A DNA stretch of 64,000 nt, taken from the NCBI RefSeq assembly GCF_001484605.1, contig NZ_CP013747.1:3100001-3164000 (forward strand), in the 5' to 3' direction. Positions 62,108-63,780 of the stretch are shown here, piece by piece. Origin of the DNA: Pseudarthrobacter sulfonivorans (GTDB lineage: Bacteria > Actinomycetota > Actinomycetes > Actinomycetales > Micrococcaceae). The notes under the pieces are model-generated. The model was given only the letters and a program-made list of their open reading frames with translations. It had not been told where the DNA came from and did no database searches. The position numbers and the translations under genes were made by a program. The number at the start of each line of letters is the position of its first letter. Position 1 is the stretch's first letter.

Positions 62108-63382
62108 CTAGCTTGCTTTGACGTCATTCGCAGCTGCGGCGGCCCGCTGCTGGGCAAGCCTGATCTCAAGGACCGCGTCCAGTGCCTGCTGGACGCGGTC
62201 CGAGGCTCCCGCGGCACTGAAGGCCTTCTGCGCTTCTTCGAGATAGACCAGGGCTTCGTCTGACTCGCCGGCGGCCTTCAGCGACTTTCCCAGCAGGAGT
62301 GAAACTTCGCCTGCCGTGTGCTTGGCCAGAGCCCCTGATTCCGAGTGGATCTCGCGGAGCTTGTTGATGGCGGCCACGATGTCGCCGGTGAGATACAGCC
62401 AGCGCGCGCGGATGAACGCAACTTCCAGCTGGTCGCTCTTGTTGCCGCCCACAATGGACAGCGCCAGTTCAGCGCGCTCGATGCTGGAAAGTGTTTCCGG
62501 TTCTACAATTCCGGAGGACAGCCGGACGGCGGCCGAGGCCTTGTTGAAGCGGGCCCACAGATCAATGTCGTTGGCAGGGGACAGCATCCGGGCGGCGCGC
62601 TCGTGGTACTTGATGCCCTCGGGGTAGTCGTGCCGCATAAAGGCGACGTTTCCGATCACCCAGGCAACCTCACCGGCAAGCTGGGACATGGAGTGCTCGT
62701 CCATCTGGTCATTCATGGCCTGGCAGTACTTCCAGGCCTCGTCCAGGCGGCCGCTCTCCGCCAGCGCGCCGATCAGCGCGCGGTAGGCGCCGATGATCAG
62801 CGTGGAACCGTTGGGCAGCTGGCCGCAGAGTTGGACGGCCGCCAATGCGTGTTCCACGGCAGTGCTCAGCTGTCCCTGTCCCTGGCAGATCGCCGCGAGC
62901 ATCTGGCGGGCACGGACGGCGAGGCCGGCAGACTCCGTGGCCATGGGGTGCTCCAGGAGGTGCTGCATGATCTTTTGGCATTCCTGCCAGTTGCCCTGCT
63001 TGATCAGGCATTCGGCCTGCATGTAGGTCATGTTCCACCACGCGCTGGTGTTCTTGCCTTCCAAGGCTATCTGGGCCGCGTTGGCTGCGTGGGTGGCGGC
63101 CAGAGGATAGTCCCTGAGGTCCCAGGCCTGGCGCGCGTAGAGGCCGGCCAGGACGTACTCGGCGTCGCTGACAGTGATGGGCTGGCTCCAGGCTTCCAGC
63201 GCCTTGGGCGCCAGCTCCAGCCTGCGGGCGAGCTCCTCGATCACTTCGGCCGTCGGCTCACGGCGGCCGGTTTCGAGGAGGGAGATGTAACTGGGGGAAT
63301 ACAGGTCCTTGCCCAGTTCAGCCTGTGTCAGCCCACGTTCGAGACGCTCCGCACGGAGCTTCTCCCCGAATCCGTTGCCCAC
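62108..63382 (-). CDS. HTH-TPR regulator (XRE DNA-binding domain plus TPR array), putative peptide sensor
   Basis: 424 residues from GTG 63382, with AGGAGGAAAT upstream. Residues about 5-62 are an XRE helix-turn-helix (FGEKLRAERLERGLTQAELGKDLYSPSYISLLETGRREPTAEVIEELARRLEL). Residues about 75-410 are a row of helical pairs of TPR type (AEYVLAGLYARQAWDLRDYPLA, AAQIALEGKN, YCQAMNDQMD, AGEVAWVIGNVAFMRHDYPEGIKYHERAARML, GEVSLLLGKSLKAAGESDEALVYLEEAQKAF). This is the domain order and size of RRNPP regulators (PlcR, Rgg, PrgX), whose TPR groove binds a short peptide. It faces the gene of a small exported peptide across 132 bases. Confidence 0.85.
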   Translation of the reverse strand: MGNGFGEKLRAERLERGLTQAELGKDLYSPSYISLLETGRREPTAEVIEELARRLELAPKALEAWSQPITVSDAEYVLAGLYARQAWDLRDYPLAATHAANAAQIALEGKNTSAWWNMTYMQAECLIKQGNWQECQKIMQHLLEHPMATESAGLAVRARQMLAAICQGQGQLSTAVEHALAAVQLCGQLPNGSTLIIGAYRALIGALAESGRLDEAWKYCQAMNDQMDEHSMSQLAGEVAWVIGNVAFMRHDYPEGIKYHERAARMLSPANDIDLWARFNKASAAVRLSSGIVEPETLSSIERAELALSIVGGNKSDQLEVAFIRARWLYLTGDIVAAINKLREIHSESGALAKHTAGEVSLLLGKSLKAAGESDEALVYLEEAQKAFSAAGASDRVQQALDAVLEIRLAQQRAAAAANDVKAS

Positions 63383-63401
63383 GGGATTTCCTCCTAATTC
63401 T

Positions 63402-63473
63402 GGACAGTCTTTGTACTCAATGCTTGACAGTCCCTGTGGAAAACATTTTACAATGTATGTCAACAAGGACAGT
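63402..63473. promoter_or_regulatory. Three GACAGT repeats in the shared promoter region
   Basis: GACAGT occurs at 63403-63408 (as GGACAGT), 63426-63431 (TGACAGT) and 63468-63473 (GGACAGT), 23 and 42 bases apart, about two and four helical turns. The second overlaps a TTGACA -35-like box (63424-63429). A TACAAT -10-like box is at 63449-63454 and an ACATT-N4-AATGT palindrome at 63443-63456. This looks like an operator for the HTH-TPR protein. Confidence 0.5.
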
Positions 63474-63514
63474 GCTGACTTTGTAACGAATCCGACTCGT
63501 ATTGAGGAACTTAT

Positions 63515-63727
63515 ATGTTGAAGAAGATTGCGGCCGCTGGCGTACTCGCTGCTGCCCTGGCATTTTCTGCGGCGGCCCCGGCTGTCCTGTCGGCAGGTTC
63601 CATCGCCGACACCACCGGCGTATCCGTAGCCGTTGGCAACTGGCCCGATCCCATGTCCAAGCCCGTCAAGGACAAGACCGGCGGCACGTACACCACCAAC
63701 GTTGGCAACTGGCCCGACCCGATGTAA
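63515..63727 (+). CDS. Exported small peptide precursor with two VGNWPDPM motifs
   Basis: 70 residues, with GAGGA six bases upstream of ATG. A Sec signal peptide is clear: MLKKIAAAGVLAAALAFSAAAP, then AVLSAG. The mature part is about 43 residues and holds two copies of the octapeptide VGNWPDPM at residues 40-47 and 63-70; the second ends the protein. The copies are 22/24 identical in DNA and the two differences are silent, so the peptide sequence is conserved. Divergent from the HTH-TPR regulator. It is a good candidate for a peptide pheromone precursor. Confidence 0.8.
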   Translation: MLKKIAAAGVLAAALAFSAAAPAVLSAGSIADTTGVSVAVGNWPDPMSKPVKDKTGGTYTTNVGNWPDPM

Positions 63728-63747: not shown

Positions 63748-63780
63748 GGCCCCGGGGCATGGTCATCATGCCTCGGGGCC
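63748..63780 (+). terminator. Terminator of the small peptide gene
   Basis: A 14-base stem (63748-63761 with 63767-63780, one mismatch) and five-base loop, 20 bases after the stop and followed by ATTTCTTTGTC. A typical intrinsic terminator, so the peptide gene is transcribed alone. Confidence 0.85.

Follow-up and report, generated by a model that had tools for sequence, protein, structure and literature searches.

A candidate Trp-Pro peptide-signaling pair in Pseudarthrobacter sulfonivorans: a helix-turn-helix-TPR receptor and a divergent octapeptide precursor with relatives across Actinomycetes

We analyzed a 64,000-nucleotide stretch of the Pseudarthrobacter sulfonivorans genome (NZ_CP013747.1, positions 3,100,001 to 3,164,000), referred to here as the window. 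At its end, a gene for a regulator with a helix-turn-helix (HTH) domain and tetratricopeptide repeats (TPRs) is divergent from a gene for a small precursor that contains the octapeptide VGNWPDPM twice. Judging from sequence evidence, we think it very likely that this pair is an intracellular peptide-signaling system that works like RRNPP quorum sensing. We found that the pairing is conserved, that the octapeptide is under selection, that its Trp-Pro is fixed and the surroundings change together with the receptor, that the receptor has a TPR fold, and that the locus has a private inverted repeat. Export, trimming, import, and binding, as well as the direction of regulation and the output, are what we infer. 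In the proposed mechanism, Sec would export the precursor, and cleavage would yield [V/I]GNWPDPM-like peptides. These would re-enter the cell via an oligopeptide permease (the host genome has 12 candidate oligopeptide-binding SBP_bac_5 genes) and dock on the concave side of the TPR domain. Binding would then alter HTH action at the inverted repeat TTGACA-N28-TGTCAA in front of the precursor gene, which would amount to autoregulation, and possibly at other sites too.

The octapeptide and its conservation

The initial annotation had described a 70-residue Sec precursor divergent from the regulator, with one of its two VGNWPDPM copies at the C terminus. The open reading frame (ORF) at 63515 to 63727 is as described, with copies at residues 40 to 47 and 63 to 70. 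Its N terminus is Sec-like by eye; here and elsewhere, export signals were judged by eye and hydropathy and not with a signal-peptide program. The DNA copies differ at only two positions, both silent. The pattern GGNAAYTGGCCNGAYCC occurs three times in the 5.06-Mb genome, and its backward-read control does not occur. This control, together with the reversed-core and downstream controls given below, led us to reject a chance origin of the motif.

We then compared named genomes, keeping the best 80 of 129 confirmed loci (Arthrobacter, Pseudarthrobacter, Paenarthrobacter, and one uncultured Micrococcaceae bacterium). A divergent precursor with [V/I/T]G[N/I]WPDP[M/A/V] was present in 80/80 of these loci. 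The pairing is therefore conserved in relatives, and it also occurs with distant receptors and with receptors that have no HTH. Together with the window, the loci gave 78 distinct precursors, with 1, 2, 3, and 4 octapeptide copies in 4, 38, 21, and 15 of them, respectively, and 75 of the 78 terminate exactly at a copy. In three close relatives (L004, L005, and L007), the precursor stops after the first copy.

Across the 78 distinct precursors, 188 of the 203 copies are exactly [V/I]GNWPDPM, written in 106 DNA encodings. When copies within a precursor were compared with one another (191 pairs), we counted 451 silent versus 18 non-silent codon differences; random single changes would give 1444:6188. 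The linkers between copies drift, and 94 of 125 are distinct. On this evidence, it is the octapeptide that is conserved and not the protein around it, and the octapeptide is under strong purifying selection. The claim of selection made from the two silent-only copies of the window thus extends to the precursors at large, and the motif does not drift freely; its core varies with the receptor.

These data also bear on the idea that the precursor is in fact a normal secreted repeat protein or wall protein and nothing more than a target of the HTH-TPR gene, with no peptide freed or bound. A regulator divergent from its target is a common arrangement, and the processing of the precursor is deduced. 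However, linkers and copy number (1 to 4) drift around a frozen octapeptide, the same octapeptide occurs in unrelated ORFs, HTH-less receptors are paired with the same type of peptide, and receptor and peptide track each other. We consider this explanation very improbable.

Receptor fold, candidate specificity residues, and intergenic repeat

The annotated architecture of the 424-residue regulator, with an XRE-type HTH at residues 5 to 62 and a TPR-like array to about residue 410, agrees well with our results. Pfam placed the HTH at residues 5 to 64 and TPR matches within residues 91 to 388. The AlphaFold model (mean pLDDT, 89.9; pTM, 0.81) is almost all helix up to residue 423 and consists of the HTH followed by an eight-repeat superhelix. 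We found no homologue in the host genome besides the receptor itself (E 1e-3 for a protein query and E 1e-30 for a profile query).

A Foldseek search with the model returned the PlcR-PapR-DNA complex at rank 8 (E 1.3e-5). In a PDB sequence search, in which the nine top rows were designed repeat proteins and were set aside, PlcR was the top-ranking natural HTH-TPR protein (E 1.3e-7, residues 4 to 199, HTH included). VIA-align scores against the model were 25.4 for Rap, 23.0 for NprR, and 21.2 for AimR, and also 27.3 for APPBP2 and 26.6 for MalT. Since the last two are unrelated TPR proteins, the fold alone is no proof of kinship with RRNPP proteins. Taken together, Pfam, AlphaFold, Foldseek, and VIA-align indicate a C-terminal TPR superhelix, as in RRNPPA intracellular peptide receptors. 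The TPR fold on which the initial annotation depended takes the form found in Rap, NprR, AimR, and PlcR, though other TPR proteins share it. Our best reading is that the system belongs to an intracellular peptide-signaling family of Actinomycetota that is RRNPP-like in its working, with descent from the RRNPP family unproven, and that it is a variant absent from the literature found.

In RRNPPA receptors, asparagines in the TPR groove hold the peptide backbone. The window receptor has two conserved asparagines, Asn245 and Asn280, and the two are 35 residues apart, as are residues 250 and 285. By the model, the members of each pair occupy equivalent places in consecutive TPRs.

We next asked how receptor and peptide vary together, using the 185 distinct pairs that remained once identical receptors and three cores judged to be chance (AALWPA, RTPWPP, and QNDWPI) had been removed. 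TPR distance correlated with core distance (rho 0.62, with 0/200 permutations as high), in part through shared ancestry. When joint changes along a tree were counted for 319 columns of the TPR domain, residue 250 ranked among the leading columns for each of the two neighbors of Trp-Pro. In the second run of this test, fine simulation was confined to the top four columns for each position of the peptide. Across the runs, residues 250, 285, and 209 stood out, among others. Overall, 6 of 957 co-change tests gave p <= 5e-4, where about 0.5 were expected, and none was significant after Bonferroni correction.

The residue tables are nevertheless striking. When Asp follows Trp-Pro, residue 250 is Arg in 117/119 receptors. 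Leu250 occurs in 8 of 10 receptors whose peptide has Phe after Pro and in 6 of 10 with Tyr (the Tyr cases in genera g31 and g32), yet in g8 Arg250 occurs with Tyr. When Ser precedes Trp, residue 285 is Asp in 9/9 receptors from three lineages. Residue 285 reached the simulation floor in the first tree-based run; in the second, it gave p 0.001 among HTH-less receptors and fell outside the top four for all receptors. These patterns are suggestive of residues 250 and 285 tracking the peptide residues that flank Trp-Pro, which offers a specificity hypothesis. The co-variation that the initial annotation proposed to test is seen for the core and the receptor as a whole and is suggested by the tables for residues 250 and 285, but no single column passes correction.

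The inverted repeat between the two genes is a candidate operator. At spacings of 27 to 29, it is the sole occurrence in the 5.06-Mb genome, and a regulon search of that genome did not find a second copy. A simple sigma-70 scan found no promoter at the intergenic repeat region. Among relatives, a similar repeat accompanies 137/166 HTH receptors with a precursor (a count dominated by one genus), 13/54 without one, and 0/72 HTH-less receptors; shuffled sequences gave none. This distribution is the reverse of that of GGDEF-EAL proteins, which accompany HTH-less receptors.

Relatives with and without the DNA-binding domain

Many Micrococcaceae genomes carry a second class of receptor that starts at the TPR array and lacks the XRE-type HTH that Pfam finds in the window receptor. 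Nearly all of the HTH-less receptors whose loci we read pair with a Sec-like precursor ending in a WP core. The motifs include IGWWPN, VGWWPH, VNWWPD, RVGSWPF, RVNNWPY, GLWPY, VGSWPN, IGNWPY, GNNNWPL, GGNWPY, and GGLWPY.

To count pairs uniformly, we required a divergent small ORF with a ribosome-binding site and a WP core that is C-terminal or repeated. Of 298 receptor matches, we used the 292 that were long and had 500 nucleotides or more upstream, a set weighted toward the Arthrobacter group in which some genes appear twice. The rule was positive for 70/72 HTH-less and 166/220 HTH receptors. With a reversed PW core, it was positive for 1 and 14, and downstream of the receptor for 6 and 18. 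Counting distinct receptors gave 54/56 HTH-less and 124/171 HTH (PW, 1 and 13; downstream, 5 and 16), and counting clusters gave 50/52 HTH-less and 52/88 HTH (PW, 1 and 8; downstream, 5 and 13). One count of the candidate precursors gave 181 distinct sequences.

A GGDEF-EAL protein was encoded in the fetched stretch of 44/72 HTH-less receptors versus 0/220 HTH receptors. Pfam confirmed GGDEF-EAL in four HTH-less examples, with HAMP above the cutoff in two. Stretches L219, L267, L299, L307, and others have HTH-less receptors near such enzymes, and L219 also has a DUF7793 protein. From this neighborhood, a route from peptide to cyclic di-GMP is possible. Among other HTH-less loci, L248:2049-4826 has two tandem receptor genes separated by a precursor with KIGNWPDG/S copies; another precursor, which ends in IDDWPH, was found in this stretch or in related ones (L241, L243, and L251). 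In L294 to L298, HTH-less receptors with NNNWP[F/L] or GGNWPY peptides adjoin large proteins; the one scanned, in L296, has CBM_5_12 carbohydrate-binding modules.

At E 1e-30 or better, receptor homologues were present in 217/395 sampled genomes of the family, 26/396 of the order, and 7/394 of the class. Phage records and IMG/VR contained no relative, and we rejected a phage origin. Receptors 43 to 76% identical to that of the window often keep the precursor, with a motif altered around Trp-Pro. Examples are IGNWPDPM in up to five copies, VGNWPDP[S/A/T/F], FVGNWPDA, TGNWPNV, PGIWPDS, VWIWPD, VGIWPN, VGDWPH, VGEWPH, and VGNWPDRFY. At other distant receptors, mainly those of genus g24, the second copies found in g7, and the g31 receptors that have an HTH, reading the loci revealed no visible precursor. 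The g24 HTH receptors without a recognizable precursor are in L131 to L136, L224, L226 to L231, L233, L235, L237, and L238, where the one hit, in L135, was judged to be chance. Such g24 receptors are possibly eavesdroppers, or their partner may be encoded elsewhere. In a second family of the same order, 10/149 genomes have a receptor. A motif accompanies 6 of the 14 receptor rows from this family, in the form of two or three VGGSWPT copies, a C-terminal SDTWPA, or a short ORF ending in GDWP.

Weak relatives were found in 40 plasmid records, mostly from Streptomyces; most are 23 to 28% identical, and some match in the HTH only. We combined 15 of these 40 stretches with 19 loci from a class-wide search with one Streptomyces receptor (found in 16/394 genomes) into a set of 34 Streptomyces-type loci, whose receptors align to the Arthrobacter profile mostly across HTH and TPR. 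A small ORF with a signal-like start and a repeated or C-terminal WP core was present in 11/34 loci versus 0/34 for the PW control, in a scan with an extra signal-like filter and unequal stretch lengths. The repeats are DIGWPVAP-like (L318, L322, and L343), DISWP (L324), DIEWP (L325), SIEWP (L329), ALNWPKCC (L331), VEWP, twice and C-terminal (L317, L319, and L341), and VIDWP, three times and C-terminal (L347). Of these, L317, L318, L319, L341, L343, and L347 are named plasmids, and L322, L324, L325, L329, and L331 are genomes. An acyl-carrier-protein gene sits between precursor and receptor in L317, L319, and L341, and several of the plasmid stretches have biosynthetic surroundings by annotation (acyl carrier proteins and SARP regulators).

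Octapeptides at other loci and comparison with known systems

Among the matches listed, the exact GNWPDPM pattern occurs in 48 of 61 genomes of the genus (G1129, with a single hit, was left unclassified). At least 17 of the genomes listed also encode it away from the main locus, in at least 21 places. None of 21 such stretches, 20 elsewhere and one in the host genome, contains a receptor. All but one of the 21 have the motif in a short ORF that lacks a signal sequence, in 1 to 4 copies, as in MSINSAVINRAHVISTVGNWPDPMGKLG of the host genome and MQDRNRMIGNWPDPMSKGGI elsewhere; the exception is L198, where it ends a longer frame. The third VGNWPDPM of the host genome is in a 28-residue leaderless ORF with a good ribosome-binding site (L216:5116-5202, G000:C1:1064115-1064201, the same as L151:1450-1536). 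This ORF sits downstream of a secreted-looking low-complexity protein and is kept with varying flanks in L211, L212, and L214. In all, 17 of the 21 motifs follow such a protein, ending in DPGS[S/T]PD, and L197, L198, L201, and L204 have other surroundings. The DPGS[S/T]PD proteins are rich in Pro, Ala, and Val, are about 270 to 455 residues long, and lie in L196, L199, L200, L202, L203, L205 to L215, and L216, all loci found via the motif. A Pfam scan of four of them gave no family.

That unrelated ORFs encode a single octapeptide is an argument that some partner common to all of them, presumably this receptor, reads the peptide itself. The leaderless ORFs also leave room for a different reading, in which the octapeptide is mainly an intracellular ligand and receptors sense peptide made in their own cell, from leaderless ORFs or from precursor that is not exported. 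The system would then report what the cell itself secretes or expresses and not how dense the population is. Consistently with this, the leaderless ORF of the host is kept in relatives, 16 of the 20 other places lie just 3' of a gene for a secreted-looking Pro/Ala-rich protein, and several HTH receptors are partnered only by short leaderless ORFs ending in VGDWPD or VGNWPD. Against it, the precursors of the 80 named loci start Sec-like by eye, and 75/78 distinct ones end exactly at the motif. Rgg-SHP and ComS, moreover, use peptides that are leaderless and nonetheless exported. We regard the intracellular-ligand reading as unlikely and favor signaling by an exported and re-imported peptide.

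Chances are about even, in our view, that a broader picture applies. Actinomycetes, from Arthrobacter to Streptomyces, would use a common Trp-Pro peptide language, peculiar to them and built on one TPR receptor fold. HTH receptors would act on promoters, on Streptomyces plasmids often beside biosynthetic genes, and HTH-less receptors would tune cyclic di-GMP via a GGDEF-EAL neighbor. Precursors would range from exported and multicopy to tiny and leaderless, and additional leaderless ORFs away from the main locus would supply this receptor with its octapeptide as well, which would let the circuit register the expression of another secreted protein.

The likeness to RRNPP systems claimed initially stands for the regulator plan and the C-terminal peptide. 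It is looser for the layout, as PlcR-PapR, Rgg-SHP, and PrgX-cCF10 are not all divergent. Like PlcR-PapR and NprR-NprX of Bacillus, the window pair combines an HTH-TPR receptor with an adjacent small precursor that has an export-like start, by eye and hydropathy, and a conserved C-terminal peptide. It differs from them in phylum, in its divergent layout, in carrying as many as 4 copies at its main locus (named set), and in its invariant Trp-Pro; its TPR array is also longer than that of PlcR. Rap receptors have no DNA-binding domain and act on a response-regulator pathway, and the other RRNPPA subfamilies have an N-terminal XRE-type HTH. Receptors without a DNA-binding domain thus exist both in Rap-Phr systems (Bacillus and phages) and here. 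Unlike Rap, however, the HTH-less receptors start directly at the TPR array, many with a GGDEF-EAL gene in the stretch, and the one scanned had no Rap-family Pfam match.

For Bacillota, both multicopy pheromone precursors and receptors that lack an HTH are already documented, as far as the consulted parts of the sources go (PMC11343458, PMC9765709), and Rap-Phr propeptides with duplicated, up to eight, pheromone copies are reported in the former. AloR-AloP of Paenibacillus likewise has many related receptor-precursor pairs diversified in one lineage, but its precursor is downstream of the receptor, and the parts consulted mention no fixed core motif (PMC7425212). RRNPP surveys, in the portions available, examined Bacillota, one of them also viruses (PMC10075063, PMC9765709). 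Gamma-butyrolactone and other quorum-sensing systems belong to the same phylum as the window pair; the sections seen describe actinobacterial signals as small molecules or cyclic or modified peptides and not as RRNPP-type pairs (PMC10075063, PMC4748050). Such pairs go unmentioned in excerpts of two reviews, one on actinobacterial quorum sensing (PMC4748050) and one of general scope from 2026 (PMC13220807). In a literature search whose coverage mostly left out subscription papers and preprints, the entries listed and the partial texts contained no description of these Trp-Pro motifs or of RRNPP-type pairs in Actinomycetota; the initial statement that no described system of this type was known in Micrococcaceae can, to that extent, be widened to the phylum. 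Such peptide signaling has so far been described mainly in a different phylum, Bacillota. A widespread peptide-receptor family in soil actinobacteria, if true, would make quorum sensing there, Streptomyces included, directly testable with synthetic peptides, with possible links from peptide signals to cyclic di-GMP and to natural-product genes.

Table 1. Features of the receptor-precursor locus (positions in the window)
Feature	Position	Strand	Evidence
HTH-TPR receptor/regulator gene, 424 residues	62108-63382	minus	GTG start; AGGAGG upstream (by eye)
XRE-type HTH, receptor residues 5-64	63191-63370	minus	Pfam HTH_31 E 1.4e-11, HTH_3 E 4.8e-11
TPR superhelix, residues 71-416, putative peptide-binding domain	62135-63172	minus	AlphaFold model m0b23fb0b3522, eight helix pairs; Pfam TPR matches; part common to HTH-less receptors
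Asn245 codon, invariant in aligned set	62648-62650	minus	127/127 HTH and 58/58 HTH-less receptors
Asn280 codon, nearly invariant, one TPR past Asn245	62543-62545	minus	121/127 HTH and 58/58 HTH-less receptors
Arg250 codon, candidate reader of peptide residue after Trp-Pro	62633-62635	minus	Co-change p ~5e-4 (all receptors), 0.02 (HTH-less); not Bonferroni-significant
Ala285 codon, candidate reader of peptide residue before Trp, one TPR past 250	62528-62530	minus	
Inverted repeat TTGACA-N28-TGTCAA, candidate operator	63424-63463	.	Conserved in alignment of 33/81 intergenic regions
Peptide precursor, 70 residues, Sec-like N terminus (~residues 1-30)	63515-63727	plus	GAGGAA ribosome-binding site; conserved in 80/80 named loci kept
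VGNWPDPM copy 1, residues 40-47	63632-63655	plus	
VGNWPDPM copy 2, residues 63-70, C-terminal	63701-63724	plus	
Terminator-like hairpin, 15 pairs, 3' of precursor	63748-63780	plus	4 such sites in 2-kb region vs 1.5 expected

Receptor and precursor form a compact unit flanked by a tRNA-Pro gene and by a gene that we take from its sequence to be purC. A small repeated precursor that adjoins a regulator could also be that of a peptide antibiotic or modified peptide with its own regulator. However, no modification, transport, or immunity genes adjoin the pair, only purC on one side and tRNA-Pro on the other, and a terminator-like hairpin follows the precursor. We rejected a peptide antibiotic cluster because no such genes are near the locus, and the probability that we leave to this explanation is almost nil. 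The hairpin itself suggests that the precursor is transcribed as a single gene.
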